Assembly (NCBI RefSeq): GCF_000147355.1
Contig: NC_014506.1
Location: 1,736,001-1,800,000 of the forward strand
Direction: 5' to 3'
Length of the DNA: 64,000 nucleotides
Source of the DNA: Sulfurimonas autotrophica DSM 16294
Lineage (GTDB): Bacteria > Campylobacterota > Campylobacteria > Campylobacterales > Sulfurimonadaceae
Made by a program: the position numbers and the translations under genes. The notes beneath the pieces are model-generated. The model did not search any database and was not told where the DNA came from. It saw only the letters and a program-made list of their open reading frames with translations. Of this stretch, positions 5,312 through 11,214 are shown one piece after another; the stretch's first letter is position 1, and each line of letters begins with the position of its first letter.

Positions 5312-5338
5312 TAGAACTTTGTTTCTAACAAAGTTCTA
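5312..5338. other. Hairpin overlapping the stop codon of the M14 gene
   Basis: A perfect 10-bp inverted repeat (TAGAACTTTG and its complement) around a 7-nt loop ends on the TAG stop of the carboxypeptidase gene. In that gene's direction it is followed by TAAAAAG rather than a T-run, so it is a poor intrinsic terminator. It may instead protect the 3' end of the mRNA or be part of a factor-dependent stop ahead of the rRNA promoter. Confidence 0.5.
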
Positions 5339-7924
5339 ATTATTTACTTCAATATATACAGGTTCAGAAAAATTTGGAACATCATCATATGAAAATACTG
5401 CGTAGTATTTATGTATATCAAGATCACCAAAATTATCATAAGTATAATTATCACTTCCTCCATATAACTTTTGACCATCATATGGGGAGCATGGAACCTT
5501 AAATCTATTTTTTACGACTATTGCACCTTTATATCCATCATCATCTGGAATATCCCATTGCAATTTAATTATTCCATTTTCCATACTCGTTCGTAAATTT
5601 TGTATTTGCTTAGGTGGGTTTTTTCTTTTACGAATATAATCCAATGTTAAAATCGGTTTATTTATTTTTTTATTATCTATCCAGTTAACATCAACACTCT
5701 TGGACGTTTCACTTTCAGACGAAGCGGAGATTACAAAAAGAGCTTTCTTATTTTCTTTTGCCAAGTCAAGCATTTCACTAATTGCATAAGTATCAAAAAC
5801 AAATCTCTGTTTTGAAGACCTTTTAATATCTGTAATACTAACATCATATCCAATTCTTTCAATGATATTTCTATTTTTTATCTTCTCATATGTAATCTCA
5901 CCTTCAATCGATTCCACTAGCTCTATATGAAAACGCAAATTATTTTCTTTTGCATTTACTTGATATGCCTGCATATCTATATATGCATCAGATACCACTG
6001 TATTTTCCATGTCCGGCAAATTCAATAGATCAAATTCGATACACGCATATTTCAAATTTCCATTTGCATCATATCCAGATTTAAGTGCAGTATCTTTAAT
6101 ATTATCACTATTAACCGTAAACTCATAAGAAGATTGAATGTCTAATTTTGCTTCATTTATAGTATATGAAATATCGAGTTTTGGTCTATATGTCAGACCA
6201 CCGCTGAACTTTCCATATCCTATATCCCACTGCATAAGCTGAGAAGCTCTGTCAAGTGGTAAAGAAGTTGGTCCCTGCATTCTAAAATAGGCTTCTCTTC
6301 TTTTTAAAGCTTTTTCAAGAACTTGTACTTCTTGTTCTGCAAATTTATATTCTCTCCATACACCTTGAGCAAGTTGATATGATGAAGTTGGTCTATCTAT
6401 ATAAGAAAGCATTTTTGCATTTTTTATTTCATCAAAACTATCTATATTATCTATTGTTCTCTCATCCATCTGTCCGACTCGCCATTCCCCATATCTCTCA
6501 ACCTGAACTGCAACTCTGTTCATTGGATAAAAAGATATTTTAGCTTCGGTAATAATTGCATTCTGAGGAATCGTTGATAAAGAAAATCCACATACTCCGT
6601 AACATTCCCCTTTTTGCTCTGAAATACCGACAAAAAGAGAATTGTTTCCAAAATGATCTCTGTTTTTTTGAGTTTTTTCCCCGACATAGCCTATTTTACT
6701 TGCTATAGGATATAAAATTTTTGAAAACATATTCTCAGCAGGTTTTGTTCTTATAGCGACTAGTTGAGCATATGGTGATTTAATAGACTTGTCTTTACAA
6801 ACTGCACGTATAAAATAATAGTAATTTGTCGAACTTTTTAAATTAGAATCTATAAATGTTTTCAGCCTAGTCATTACAATTCTATTTGAAGCTTGAGCAA
6901 ACCCCTTTAATTTGTTTGAACGATAAATTTCAAAATAAATTGTTTCATCATCTATATAATCCCATGAAAGTTCTACTTCTTTTGCACCTATACATGTTGC
7001 TACAAAGTTATCAACACGTTGTAAATTATCTTCTTTTTTATAATTGTTTACTTCTAAGAGTGCCATAATTAAAGCCGGAATATTTTCTTTAATATGTTCA
7101 CTCATATGCTCAATATAATCACTGATATTTCTTGTGCCTACTTCAGCAACTAAAGAGAGCATGCCTTGAGAATAATAAAATTCTCGACCACTTCCTGAAA
7201 TTAAATGTACTGGCGGTTTTCCCATGTGAATGCCATACTCACGGGAGGACTCTTTTCTTATTTCCTCTGCCATATTTCCGGCTAAGAGATTTAAATCAAT
7301 AGCATCCTCAGCATCTTCATGTATAAAATTATGTGCAGGAAAAAAAACATTTCCTTGGGAATGGTAGTCCAATGTGATTGTTATATTTTTATGTGTAAGT
7401 ACAAAATCACGAAGTGCTGCAGTTTCCGGTTCACTAAATGGTTGAGGGCCAGAGTATACGTTAGAAGTATAATTTTTATTTGGTGTAAAGCCTACACTAA
7501 AGTTTCTGTTTAAGTCGACTCCATAACTTCCATCAGGATTTTTTCTACGGTTTTTTCTCCAAAAAGCGAAATGATTTCTAGAGTATTCAAAACCGTCTGG
7601 GTTTGCACAAGGAACCATATAAAGTGTTGTTTTATCAAGTATTTGATTGAGTTGTGGGTCGTAATCTATATGTTCTAATATATATTTTGCAAATGATAGA
7701 GAAAGTTCTATGCCTATCCATTCTCTTGCATGAATTGTTCCCGTATAAAAAAGTGCCGGCTTATTTACATGTAAGTCTATATTTTTTGTAATAGAGACAG
7801 CAATGATATCTCGCTCTTCCCATGTTTTACCTATAGTTTCTACTTTAACAAGATTAGGATTTTCTTTTTGTGCAGTGTGAAAAAAATCTACACATTCATC
7901 ATACGAACTATATTGTTGTCTCAA
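5336..7924 (-). CDS. M14 zinc carboxypeptidase with Fn3 and DNRLRE-like modules
   Basis: A protein of 862 residues. Residues 1-295 form an M14 metallocarboxypeptidase domain with the expected catalytic set: zinc ligands H65 and E68 in GTIHAREW, the substrate-binding NR pair at 139-140 in GVDLNRNF, the third zinc ligand H188 in DYHSQG, and the catalytic glutamate E261 in LVAEVGT. A fibronectin-III-like domain follows (about 305-395), then two beta-rich segments resembling DNRLRE modules (about 400-600 and 605-770) and a second Fn3-like domain at the C-terminus. No signal peptide is visible. The start is TTG, with AAGG nine bases upstream; an in-frame stop just before it leaves no earlier choice. 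It is the last gene of an operon with an M20 peptidase and a RimK-like ligase. Substrate unknown; removal of C-terminal amino acids such as glutamate is an inference. Confidence 0.85.
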   Translation of the reverse strand: MRQQYSSYDECVDFFHTAQKENPNLVKVETIGKTWEERDIIAVSITKNIDLHVNKPALFYTGTIHAREWIGIELSLSFAKYILEHIDYDPQLNQILDKTTLYMVPCANPDGFEYSRNHFAFWRKNRRKNPDGSYGVDLNRNFSVGFTPNKNYTSNVYSGPQPFSEPETAALRDFVLTHKNITITLDYHSQGNVFFPAHNFIHEDAEDAIDLNLLAGNMAEEIRKESSREYGIHMGKPPVHLISGSGREFYYSQGMLSLVAEVGTRNISDYIEHMSEHIKENIPALIMALLEVNNYKKEDNLQRVDNFVATCIGAKEVELSWDYIDDETIYFEIYRSNKLKGFAQASNRIVMTRLKTFIDSNLKSSTNYYYFIRAVCKDKSIKSPYAQLVAIRTKPAENMFSKILYPIASKIGYVGEKTQKNRDHFGNNSLFVGISEQKGECYGVCGFSLSTIPQNAIITEAKISFYPMNRVAVQVERYGEWRVGQMDERTIDNIDSFDEIKNAKMLSYIDRPTSSYQLAQGVWREYKFAEQEVQVLEKALKRREAYFRMQGPTSLPLDRASQLMQWDIGYGKFSGGLTYRPKLDISYTINEAKLDIQSSYEFTVNSDNIKDTALKSGYDANGNLKYACIEFDLLNLPDMENTVVSDAYIDMQAYQVNAKENNLRFHIELVESIEGEITYEKIKNRNIIERIGYDVSITDIKRSSKQRFVFDTYAISEMLDLAKENKKALFVISASSESETSKSVDVNWIDNKKINKPILTLDYIRKRKNPPKQIQNLRTSMENGIIKLQWDIPDDDGYKGAIVVKNRFKVPCSPYDGQKLYGGSDNYTYDNFGDLDIHKYYAVFSYDDVPNFSEPVYIEVNN

Positions 7925-7956
7925 GTCATTACCTTAATTTTTTCGAAATCATACTC

Positions 7957-8871
7957 TTACTTCGTTTTTCTGTCAATTAAATCTACAATTAAATCAATTT
8001 TTTTATTATTAAAGTTTAATCCCATTTTTTCTTGTTCTGGAGTGGCAAAAGCAGGGATTCCATTCACTTCTAAAACTATGTATTCTTCTGTATCTCTATC
8101 ATAAATAATATCTACACCGCCAATATCTACACCTGTAGCTTTGCAGGCTTTTTTAGCAATATTTACAACTTCATCATTTGCTTCACGAATAAACACACTG
8201 CCACCGCTTGTTACATTTGTCCGCCAATCAGTTCCACTCGCTTTGCGCCCATAACAAGCAACAAACTTTCCATCTACAATATCGACTCTAAAGTCAGTAT
8301 TGTCATAATTTATAAATTTTTCTACATAAAAATAACGTAAATCCATTTGATTTAAAAATGGCATTAACATATCGAGGTTTGCTTCGCTTTCTATCTTCGT
8401 AAGCCCGACACCGCCCCATCCATCTGTCGGTTTATAAACCATTTTATCCCATTTTTTTATGATTTTTTTGAGTTCATGTCCATCATCCCTGTGACATAAT
8501 TTATAATCAGCAGTTTTAATCCCGTTGTTTCTCAAGACAAATGAAGTATGAAATTTATCTTCTGTCAGGGCAAAAGAATCATAAGTATTAATCATAGGAA
8601 TTATACGGTTCAATGCCTGATACAAATACATTTGATACAGAGTTTGTTCTCCAGCATTATAAGAGAAGAACAGGTCTAATTTATCCAACTTTTCTCCACG
8701 ATGCTCTTCACCGTGATAAATTATATGTGCATTTTTTGCAATCGCATGGCGTAAATTTATATCATCCAAGACATCAATGTCTCGTTCTTTCAACTTTTTT
8801 ATGATTTTCTTTCCAATTTTATCACCGCCGCCATTTTTATACAGCCACATTCCTATTTTTCTATTACTCAT
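7957..8871 (-). CDS. RimK-like ATP-grasp ligase
   Basis: This 304-residue protein has the fold signatures of the RimK/YheC-type ATP-grasp family, which joins amino acids, often glutamate, to a peptide or cofactor carboxylate through an acyl-phosphate. ATP-binding segments are visible around KPTDGWGGVGLTKI (about 148-161) and VEKFI, with metal-binding and catalytic residues in DFRVDIVDG, RTNVTSGG and the C-terminal VLEVNGIPAF, where the Glu and Asn are the classic Mg ligands. The N-terminal 90 residues are less conserved. It sits between an M20 peptidase (15 nt gap) and an M14 carboxypeptidase (32 nt gap), all co-directional. True RimK modifies ribosomal protein S6; the neighbours here suggest a different target with built-in trimming enzymes. 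Acceptor and donor are unknown. Confidence 0.85.
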   Translation of the reverse strand: MSNRKIGMWLYKNGGGDKIGKKIIKKLKERDIDVLDDINLRHAIAKNAHIIYHGEEHRGEKLDKLDLFFSYNAGEQTLYQMYLYQALNRIIPMINTYDSFALTEDKFHTSFVLRNNGIKTADYKLCHRDDGHELKKIIKKWDKMVYKPTDGWGGVGLTKIESEANLDMLMPFLNQMDLRYFYVEKFINYDNTDFRVDIVDGKFVACYGRKASGTDWRTNVTSGGSVFIREANDEVVNIAKKACKATGVDIGGVDIIYDRDTEEYIVLEVNGIPAFATPEQEKMGLNFNNKKIDLIVDLIDRKTK

Positions 8872-8886
8872 TTATACCCTCTCCCT

Positions 8887-9990
8887 TCAAAAACTTAAAT
8901 TTTTTATAAAATATTCAAATAAATCACTACTCATCTCAATTCTGCTTGTAAAACTGCTTTTTAGTGCTCTTTCCTTGAGAGTATGATCTCCATCTCCGTA
9001 GGGTCCAAAACCATCAAGCGTTACAACACCGCATGAACTTACAATGTTGGCATCACTAACACCGCCTCTCTCTTCATAAGCGATTGATTGTTTTGTAATA
9101 CTTTCAATTTGTTTGAGCAACTCCAAAGATGAGTCGGATGTTTGCATTACATCTCTTTGTATTCCACCGCTGAGAGTAGAGGTAATGCCATCAACAAAAG
9201 ATTTTTGGACAATTTGTTCAATCTCTTTTAAAACCCTATCTCTTTCTTTTGAAATTTTATATCTTAATTCAAAAATCATTTTTGCATGAGGAGAAATTGT
9301 ATTTGCGCCGATACCGCCTTCAATTTTACCGACATTAACAGTAGTTCCTTTTTCTAAGTCTGTTAATGCTACTAGTGATTGAAGTTTGTAAGAGAGCTCA
9401 AGATTTGCATCATGCCCGTCACTGTAATGATTTCCTGCATGTGCTGCCTTTCCCTCTATATCAATAAAAAATGTTCCAACACCTTTTCTTCCGGTTACTA
9501 GTTCCAAATTTTTGCCTGCTGCCTCATACACAAAGCAGTAGTCATATTCACGTGCTAATTCTGCTGTAAGATATTTTGAATCATCACTGCCTGTTTCTTC
9601 ATCACTGACAAAAAGAATATCTATATTTTGAATTTTCAAGCCTTTACATGTAAGCTGACGCAGTGCTTCAAGTAAAACGATGTTACCGCCTTTCATATCA
9701 CAGACTCCGGGTCCGTATACCCATTGTTCATCTTCAGTAAAATATTCAAATTTTCCTGAAGGAAAGACCGTGTCAATATGTCCTAATAAAAGAAGTTTTG
9801 GGGAATTTTCTACATGTAAAGATTTATAATGTCGATGGTTGCCTATACTGGTGCGGTTATAAATGGTCGTTTCAAAACCTAATGATTCAAACCACTCATC
9901 AAATATTTCACCGACGAGATCAACTCCCTCTTTATTTTTTGTATAGGAGTTTATTTCTACGACCTTTTTCAAGTCTTGTAAATAGTGCAT
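8887..9990 (-). CDS. M20 family metallopeptidase, carboxypeptidase G2 type
   Basis: This 367-residue protein carries the full M20 metal-binding and catalytic pattern: H71 and D73 in GHIDTV, the bridging D98 in GVCDMKGG, E131 and E132 in SDEETGS, and the late GDGDHT histidine motif. An insert resembling the M20 dimerisation domain carries GKAAHAGNH. The family removes C-terminal amino acids, typically glutamate in the CPG2 branch, or acyl groups. It is the first gene of a three-gene operon with a RimK-like ligase and an M14 carboxypeptidase. A TATAAT box at 10025-10020 gives the operon its own promoter after the rplS terminator. The absence of a signal peptide places it in the cytoplasm. Confidence 0.88.
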   Translation of the reverse strand: MHYLQDLKKVVEINSYTKNKEGVDLVGEIFDEWFESLGFETTIYNRTSIGNHRHYKSLHVENSPKLLLLGHIDTVFPSGKFEYFTEDEQWVYGPGVCDMKGGNIVLLEALRQLTCKGLKIQNIDILFVSDEETGSDDSKYLTAELAREYDYCFVYEAAGKNLELVTGRKGVGTFFIDIEGKAAHAGNHYSDGHDANLELSYKLQSLVALTDLEKGTTVNVGKIEGGIGANTISPHAKMIFELRYKISKERDRVLKEIEQIVQKSFVDGITSTLSGGIQRDVMQTSDSSLELLKQIESITKQSIAYEERGGVSDANIVSSCGVVTLDGFGPYGDGDHTLKERALKSSFTSRIEMSSDLFEYFIKNLSF

Positions 9991-10506: not shown

Positions 10507-11214
10507 TTAATTTTTTTTCATTGCTCCGACGCAATGATATTTTATCAGCTGTTCAGGTCTAAAGAATTTGGTCTTTGCTTCAGACAAGGCTAATTTCAGT
10601 GAGCGAATTTTACTATGATTTCCCTTTAAGTATTCTGATGGAACACTTAAACCCTCATATGTTTTTGGTTTTGAAAATGATGGTGCTTCTAAAAGTGGCG
10701 TTTCAAAACTTTCAATCTCTAAAGACTCAGAATTTCCAAGCACACCTTCTCTATTTCTACTTACTGCGTCACAAATAACCAAAGAAGCTAATTCTCCTCC
10801 GGTTAGAATGTAATCACCTATAGAAAACACTTCATCCGCATATTTTTCAATAACTCTCTCATCTATACCCTCATACCTTCCACTCACAAAAGCTACATGG
10901 TTTTTCTTTGCCAAACGTTTTGCATCATTTTGTACAAAAGGTTTAGCAACGGGAGTTACAAAAATAATATGAACATTTTCATCTTTTTTTTTCAAATCAT
11001 CCAATGCATCAAAAAGCGATTGTGCGTTCATTACCATACCTGCACCACCGCCGACTGCCGTATCATCAACTTTAAAATGTTTGTTTTTCGAGTAACCTCT
11101 CGGATCAAGATAGTTAATCCTTAAAAGATCTTTCTCAATCGCTCTTTTTAAAATTGAATCTTTAAAATAACCCTCGATCAGGTTAGAAAAAAGAGTAACA
11201 AAAGTAAAAGTCAT
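10507..11214 (-). CDS. trmD: tRNA (guanine-37-N1)-methyltransferase TrmD
   Basis: This 235-residue SPOUT methyltransferase places m1G at position 37 of tRNAs that read CNN codons and so prevents +1 frameshifting. Visible family motifs are VGGGAGMVM (about 54-62), SGRYEGIDERV and IGDYILTGGELA, which build the trefoil-knot SAM site. It starts directly after the rimM stop with no spacing, so the two are probably translationally coupled. Full length for the family. Confidence 0.97.
   Translation of the reverse strand: MTFTFVTLFSNLIEGYFKDSILKRAIEKDLLRINYLDPRGYSKNKHFKVDDTAVGGGAGMVMNAQSLFDALDDLKKKDENVHIIFVTPVAKPFVQNDAKRLAKKNHVAFVSGRYEGIDERVIEKYADEVFSIGDYILTGGELASLVICDAVSRNREGVLGNSESLEIESFETPLLEAPSFSKPKTYEGLSVPSEYLKGNHSKIRSLKLALSEAKTKFFRPEQLIKYHCVGAMKKN

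Follow-up and report, generated by a model that had tools for sequence, protein, structure and literature searches.

Why would a bacterium keep, in one operon, a ligase of the type that adds amino acids to carboxylates and two peptidases from families that take C-terminal residues off? This question is raised by a locus of Sulfurimonas autotrophica DSM 16294, which lies in a stretch of 64,000 nucleotides (contig NC_014506.1, positions 1,736,001 to 1,800,000; the whole stretch is called the window here, and the genome that carries it the host). The original prediction described three genes at positions 9990-5336 as a cytoplasmic write-and-erase system for an amino-acid tail. The open reading frames (ORFs), the strand and the Pfam families of the three genes were confirmed:

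9990-8887, minus strand: M20 metallopeptidase of 367 aa, like carboxypeptidase G2 (CPG2), at the head of the local operon
8871-7957, minus strand: ATP-grasp 1, a RimK/MptN-like carboxylate-amine ligase, 304 aa
7924-5336, minus strand: M14 carboxypeptidase, 862 aa from a TTG start, with FN3-like and DNRLRE-type regions

The genes stand head to tail with intergenic gaps of 15 and 32 bp. They do belong together, as was predicted, but the set of three is incomplete: a second ATP-grasp gene had been missed, and the FN3-like and DNRLRE regions of the M14 protein had been omitted. The conserved unit is made of four genes, namely M20, ATP-grasp 1, ATP-grasp 2 (often with a helix-hairpin-helix, HhH, C-terminus) and M14. 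The gene set, its linkage, its co-occurrence and the conservation of its residues are established in our analysis. The reading that we favor, tentatively and with somewhat less than even confidence, is that the four genes serve to join acidic amino acids (most likely glutamate) reversibly, in the cytoplasm, to the carboxyl terminus of a macromolecule whose gene lies outside the operon.

Composition and distribution of the four-gene set

Loci were fetched by similarity to ATP-grasp 1; this gave 113 relatives, of which the 80 best were compared. In 24 of these 80 loci M20, ATP-grasp 1, ATP-grasp 2 and M14 follow each other in this order on a single strand, and in 7 the order is kept with M20 inverted. 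Another 20 contain M20, ATP-grasp 1 and M14 but no ATP-grasp 2 within the stretch; the remaining 29 have other arrangements or parts, and a number of them end at contig ends. The genes are packed closely, with median intergenic gaps of 9-10 bp. Same-strand gaps below 60 bp separate M20 from ATP-grasp 1 in 60 of 63 pairs, ATP-grasp 1 from ATP-grasp 2 in 71 of 77, ATP-grasp 2 from M14 in 58 of 77 and ATP-grasp 1 from M14 in 19 of 27 (a genome present more than once is counted each time in these gap counts and in the neighbor counts over 131 loci given below). That the block is also met in other genera argues for more than chance. Distances among the four genes are moderately correlated (Pearson 0.49-0.82 over 40 loci), values that are uncorrected for species relatedness and are not taken as proof; P values for co-occurrence likewise leave relatedness out of account. 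In the host itself, ATP-grasp 2 sits far from the window operon, at G000:C1:986633.

To follow the distribution, each of the four proteins was searched against the same fixed set of 298 genomes from the class. Orthologues were taken at E<1e-100 for ATP-grasp 1 (a cut chosen on the list of matches down to 1e-10), 1e-20 for ATP-grasp 2, 1e-20 for M14 and 1e-60 for M20. At these cuts ATP-grasp 1 is found in 30 genomes, ATP-grasp 2 in 30 and as a remnant in one more, M14 in 31 and M20 in 31. Weaker matches of ATP-grasp 1 (E 1e-16 to 1e-10, 22-33% identical) in 30 further genomes stand outside this count, and the M20 genes of G096 and G257 were kept in it, since despite stops inside the initial match their ORFs are whole (365 and 359 aa). 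All four genes occur in 29 of the 298 genomes and any of them in 33. Of the four partial holders, G061 has M20, G255 has M14 and G217 has ATP-grasp 2 with M14, while in G105 a contig of 4.2 kb carries M20 and ATP-grasp 1. Within the host's genus the set is present in 4 of 17 sampled genomes. The original prediction was to be given up if relatives carried the genes separately and with no linkage; the genes are linked in relatives, and so this objection fails.

These data also bear on a plainer explanation, in which the peptidases serve general peptide scavenging, the ATP-grasps act in an unrelated step and the linkage is a frozen neighborhood. The M20 and M14 families are known to include scavenging enzymes, and 4 of the 298 genomes retain just one or two of the genes. 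Yet linkage or co-occurrence outlasts the inversion of M20, the relocation of ATP-grasp 2 (in the host and in G009) and that of M14 in G248, where M14 lies on a different contig from the other three genes with other genes flanking both sides, and it is kept in Photobacterium. We therefore give this explanation very little credence.

The Photobacterium case is plasmid pDA100 of Photobacterium sp. DA100, which carries the full set (L149:10718-17098): ATP-grasp 1, ATP-grasp 2 and M14 overlap by 4 bp and M20 is divergent. Apparently, the four genes were here transferred between phyla. ATP-grasp 1 matches 54 of 72,556 plasmid records, and among the 30 of these 54 matches listed the pDA100 protein reaches 54.6% and the next ones at most 31.3%. 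For ATP-grasp 2 the plasmid records hold a single match besides pDA100, at 27.2%. Phage records gave 11 matches, all partial and distant. A role in anti-phage defense was considered separately and is disfavored, as the four host proteins match 0 PADLOC-DB families.

The two ATP-grasp ligases

ATP-grasp 1 matches the Pfam RimK family above its cut-off (1.9e-18). Its nearest NCBIfam model is MptN (NF040720; 138 bits, cut-off 350), rimK_fam is missed more narrowly (127.1 bits, cut-off 143.4) and the RimK equivalog NF007764 is not passed (54.6 bits vs 331). By sequence, ATP-grasp 1 is nearest to the RimK-family glutamate ligases. It was proposed that a match of the ligase pocket to a known cofactor pathway would speak against the system; at the level of sequence models no cofactor-ligase cut-off was passed, and the host lacks FTR (PF01913) of the methanopterin pathway, the other genes of which were not searched. 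When ATP-grasp 1 is aligned with an E. coli RimK, residues K141, R189, R203, N213, D248, E260 and N262 are kept in 27 of 27 ATP-grasp 1 rows, and the R211 position holds Arg in 23 rows and Lys in 4. Section 3.3 of PMC10092738 shows R189 and N262 of the Pseudomonas enzyme in contact with the last glutamate, the residue numbering of the Pseudomonas and E. coli proteins being taken as equal. The other poly-Glu contacts in that section, S7, R8, R64 and S68, fall in the N-terminal part, where the MAFFT alignment with ATP-grasp 1 is offset and was left out of the comparison. With these kept catalytic residues, ATP-grasp 1 would activate a carboxylate with ATP and join an amino acid to it.

ATP-grasp 2 is longer (440-518 residues in 116 ORFs, repeats included). 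All 29 aligned rows contain a RimK-like ATP-grasp domain, and the C-terminal part matches HHH_5 in 16, HHH in 8 and HHH_3 in 4 of the 29, rows that may overlap. The protein keeps K141, R189, R203, N213 and D248 and has Leu or Ile at R211 (29/29). Its best solved matches in a profile search are 3vpd (2.1e-12; 'Ribosomal protein S6 modification protein' in the PDB), which we take to be a Thermus LysX/ArgX-type enzyme, and 1uc9 (5.2e-11; 'lysine biosynthesis enzyme'). All three share a W-I/L-TNT--GG stretch. In the reading that we favor, ATP-grasp 2 would be a second or regulatory ligase, which may choose the acceptor.

The resemblance to LysX raises another explanation, a carrier route in which a small carrier receives an amino acid from the ligase on its terminal Glu and the M20 enzyme releases the product. 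The LysX/LysK system likewise combines a RimK-like ligase with an M20 hydrolase; ATP-grasp 2 resembles the LysX-type chains 3vpd and 1uc9, and the window M20 matches the [LysW]-lysine hydrolase model, though weakly (50.8 bits vs a cut-off of 363). However, a LysW-family carrier (TIGR01206) was not found in the host genome by a search that was positive in 4 of 14 control genomes, the stretch that follows the conserved Glu differs in ATP-grasp 2 when it is compared with ATP-grasp 1, and the present set has an M14 enzyme and a ligase in excess of that system. We regard the carrier route as improbable. Literature searches on LysX/LysK and on N-acetylglutaminylglutamine brought no usable precedent among the matches listed.

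The M14 and M20 peptidases

The M14 protein matches Peptidase_M14 above the Pfam cut-off (7.9e-59), with the domain at residues 13-266, and its DNRLRE_dom match lies just above threshold (36.4 bits, cut-off 34). Among 31 homologue rows (E <=0.01), M14 and DNRLRE matches are each found in 31 and fn3 in 21. Residues H65, E68, H188, R123, N139, R140 and E261 are kept in 32 of 32 rows; we take their roles from carboxypeptidase A (CPA), presumably zinc ligands, carboxylate-binding Arg/Asn and the catalytic Glu. The position that corresponds to CPA residue 255, which determines specificity, is R247 in the window protein and aligns to an Ile of CPA4; of the 32 rows, 30 have Arg there and the other 2 Lys. 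Arg255 gives acidic specificity in carboxypeptidase O (CPO), and frog CPO with Arg255 cleaves a Glu-Glu substrate and not Phe-Ala or Phe-Phe (PMC9925722, in part). Since a basic residue stands at this position in all 32 rows, acidic C-terminal residues are predicted as the substrate. The M14 enzyme would thus take off terminal acidic residues by means of a basic S1' pocket, while its FN3 and DNRLRE regions might, as a guess, hold the target.

Likeness to CPO, a member of M14A, is limited to this basic specificity residue and to the acidic preference, which is predicted here and known in CPO. CPO is a secreted or GPI-linked animal enzyme. The window protein, in contrast, has no signal-like N-terminus, contains FN3/DNRLRE regions and is without Tyr248.

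The original prediction compared the set with tubulin glutamylation. The logic of the comparison stands: tubulin is modified by ATP-grasp-like TTLL ligases, and the glutamates are removed by M14 erasers, the cytosolic carboxypeptidases (CCP/AGBL). The proteins themselves do not bear it out. The ligase here is of the RimK type, and the window M14 matches 54 PDB sequences (E <=0.001) that are by name of the CPA, CPB, CPT, CPO, CPN, CPM and CPD types, none of the 54 being named as a CCP; one of them, 3mn8 ('LP15968p'), is presumably CPD-like.

The M20 protein matches Peptidase_M20 (7.1e-18) and M20_dimer (5.5e-17), both above cut-off. Carboxypeptidase G2 (1cg2) is its best PDB match (6.8e-27, residues 4-353 of 367 aligned), and H71, D73, D98, E131, E132, E156 and H336, which we assume from CPG2 to be the metal and catalytic residues, are invariant in 11 aligned rows. 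With these rows the predicted retention of catalytic residues holds for all three window enzymes. The protein fails the glutamate carboxypeptidase model NF004788 (190.5 bits vs 349), and its best NCBIfam model, NF005602 'hydrolase', is also not passed (221.6 vs 357 bits). While CPG2 is thus the best solved relative, it is an exported and folate-directed enzyme, whereas the window M20 has no signal-like N-terminus. By analogy with CPG2, the M20 enzyme may remove or recycle the last residue or a released acyl-glutamate. The N-termini of the window proteins look hydrophilic, as judged by eye, in agreement with the predicted lack of signal peptides.

Possible acceptors and genomic surroundings

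Acidic residues are hinted at by the nearest relatives of the ligase, by the M14 pocket and by the M20 family taken together. As ligases are here paired with exopeptidases and the set occurs nearly whole, attachment and removal is the simplest account. The predicted write-and-erase function gains from the linkage and from the M14 specificity position, though it had been built on an incomplete gene set. The HhH tail of ATP-grasp 2 and the FN3/DNRLRE parts of M14 suggest, as sequence features, that the acceptor may be a macromolecule.

Another hypothesis is that the product is a small peptide-like metabolite, such as a glutamate-tailed cofactor, an osmolyte or a storage peptide, which the ATP-grasps build stepwise and the peptidases break down. 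We think that this is a real possibility, a little less likely than the reading that we favor. Among NCBIfam models it is the cofactor ligase MptN that stands nearest to ATP-grasp 1. CPG2 is known to act on small acyl-glutamates, and the genera in the record titles are mainly marine, with marine sampling bias uncontrolled. A near parallel is methylofuran, which is made by two predicted ATP-grasp ligases, MyfA and MyfB; MyfB is MptN-like (33% identical to MptN) and makes polyglutamate (PMC8141765, in part). In the main text of that paper the word 'peptidase' is absent. Against a metabolite stand the score of ATP-grasp 1, which is far below the MptN cut-off, the host's lack of FTR, and the fact that no biosynthetic gene recurs beside the system across lineages in 131 loci; a ligase with an HhH tail and an M14 enzyme of 862 aa that carries FN3/DNRLRE regions would also be odd for such a role. 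If the acceptor is nevertheless a small molecule, the set would point to an undescribed glutamylated metabolite in Campylobacterota.

Bacteria already have a known way to write and erase glutamate, on ribosomal protein S6, by the ligase RimK and the protease RimB. In RimABK of Pseudomonas fluorescens an ATP-grasp glutamate ligase is likewise combined with a dedicated protease that removes polyglutamate (PMC11957791, in part). The systems differ in that the eraser there is a retropepsin-like aspartic protease, in that there is one ligase and here two, and in that S6 is not supported as a conserved target here. The original prediction knew of no characterised bacterial system with the present gene set. 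The write-and-erase logic is known from RimK/RimB, but for the gene set this statement agrees with our PMC literature search: among the matches listed (titles and abstract beginnings, few subscription papers) we found no four-gene set, no M14 eraser with an Arg pocket and no HhH-tailed ATP-grasp. Iyer and co-workers (2009) reportedly surveyed amidoligase gene neighborhoods, and this survey could include the set. The words 'peptidase' and 'carboxypeptidase' are absent from the main text of PMC4431377.

Several points weigh against reversible acidic tailing of a macromolecule. ATP-grasp 1 is below every curated cut-off, so its amino acid is not fixed. In ATP-grasp 2 the Asn of the E-x-N motif, which binds metal, is invariantly missing (LEC--ATAFA, where ATP-grasp 1 has LEVNGIPAFA), and by its sequence the protein may be inactive or in another role. 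The Tyr248 position of M14 is taken by residues other than Tyr in all 32 rows (K in 15, H in 11, E and N in 2 each, G and Q in 1 each). Other M14 pocket positions also shape specificity (PMC9925722, in part), and position 255 is the one compared here. HhH and FN3-like domains are no proof of a macromolecular acceptor, and in 131 loci no recognisable acceptor gene lies beside the system, the sole frequent gene directly behind M14 being a gamma-carbonic-anhydrase-like one (13/131). The last point concerns S6 itself. Among the holders of the set examined (6 of 29), S6 ends in Glu or Asp in 1, compared with 4 of 25 other genomes, in a comparison that is made of the 30 best-scoring S6 loci and the host and is not a random sample; S6 as a conserved target is thus not supported.

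A RimK-type modification of S6, with M14 and M20 in place of RimB, is very improbable in our view, although it has some points in its favor: ATP-grasp 1 keeps the RimK catalytic residues, including R189 and N262 that contact the last glutamate, the host operon follows rplS, and the host S6 (L163:1495-1956) has an acidic C-terminal repeat tail of PKAEEA units that ends in Glu. Elsewhere, however, the operon has other neighbors, e.g., argG, and PF05618, which we take to be the RimB family, was not found in the host and is present in 2 of 14 control genomes. Long and variable S6 tails are seen in many genomes of the class.

A bolder form of the macromolecular reading is a glutamate-tail code on a nucleic-acid-associated protein, with two ATP-grasp writers (one of them HhH-tailed) and an Arg-pocket M14 together with M20 as erasers, independent of both tubulin polyglutamylation and RimK/RimB. 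We consider this proposal unlikely. Were reversible acidic tailing correct, sulfur-oxidising and other Campylobacterota would have a second, independent bacterial way to add and remove glutamate-like tails, with M14 and M20 in place of RimB. Two uncharacterised ATP-grasp families and an unusual M14 without a signal-like N-terminus would thereby gain a function, and what such tails do could be asked by simple genetics, with four genes and some hosts in culture.

Elongation factor P (EF-P) can be mentioned as a candidate target only. In the host, ATP-grasp 2 lies 29 bp behind efp in the order efp-ATP-grasp 2-dnaE, named by eye (L150:6020-8040; genome ~986,000-988,000), and in G009 it likewise stands between efp and dnaE, with a similar gap behind efp. 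A decayed ATP-grasp 2 in G037 (residues 1-130, with 3 TGA and 1 TAA), one of the other 13 genomes sampled in the host's genus, is placed between efp and dnaE, where the copies of the host and G009 are intact; at the thresholds used, G037 has no match to ATP-grasp 1, M14 or M20. These efp cases of the host's genus share one site. At an Arcobacteraceae locus (L088), efp (10645-11205) is on the opposite strand, ~1.2 kb from M14.

The surroundings of the set were also viewed for a peptide precursor, as in graspetide-like maturation, where a precursor receives cross-links from ATP-grasps and is trimmed by peptidases. Paired RimK-like ATP-grasps are known from graspetide clusters. The short median gaps, on the other hand, leave no room for a precursor between the genes in most loci, no small conserved neighbor is found in the 40 commonest families of ORFs of at least 60 aa (shorter ORFs were not examined), and M14, M20 and carboxypeptidase are unmentioned in the main text of the graspetide survey PMC8939145. 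We find this explanation barely credible.

Four candidate signals accompany the window genes:

10131-10116, minus strand: terminator-like hairpin after rplS and before the operon (pattern scan)
10049-10020, minus strand: candidate sigma-70 promoter TTAACA-18-TATAAT, 11/12 consensus positions, ~30 bp 5' of M20
7976-7948, minus strand: candidate second promoter before M14, TTGACA-17-TATGAT, 11/12 consensus positions
5312-5338, plus strand: 12-pair inverted repeat at the M14 end, where the unit may stop (pattern scan; the plus strand has a T-rich tail)

The promoter match on the M20 side and the hairpin after rplS fit a separate transcription unit. The TATAAT that had been ascribed to the operon is present in a good match, but the scan as a whole gave 30 promoter-like matches vs 25.7 in shuffles, a total not clearly above chance. 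On the 5' side lie rplS, trmD, rimM and ffh (ORFs named by eye), and on the 3' side an rRNA operon (16S 4896-3378, tRNA 3242-3170, 23S from 2872). The M14 ORF has no ATG start: four codons before its TTG the frame is closed by a TAA. Among the classes of loci listed, the first in-frame start of its homologues is TTG in 47 of 71 ORFs, ATG in 20 and GTG in 4 (same-genome repeats included), so the TTG of the window is no local error; perhaps it keeps expression low.

The commonest other neighbor families in the 131 loci are the rplS-trmD-rimM block (30-31) and argG (15), both named by eye, and the gamma-carbonic-anhydrase-like gene (13). The latter encodes a hexapeptide protein and stands 3' of M14, on the same strand and within 120 bp, in 13 of the 13 loci that have it (L071:11037-11537, L152:4834-5358 with a 4-bp overlap with M14, L153:9736-10236 and ten more); in L153 the stretch has M14 and this gene but none of the other three. 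Two members that were scanned reach 193-200 bits against NF050158 (cut-off 250). Some genomes have ATP-grasp 1 twice. The additional copy lies in or next to the operon (L047:6940-7836, L055:7105-8007, L060:6991-7887 and L083:11207-12124) and shows 56-59% identity to the window protein; in L083 a separate 145-aa helix-hairpin-helix protein follows this copy. At L088:5687-5998 a 103-aa ORF6N-domain protein (PF10543, 3.2e-28) is placed between M20 and ATP-grasp 1; domains of this type are common in phage and mobile elements.

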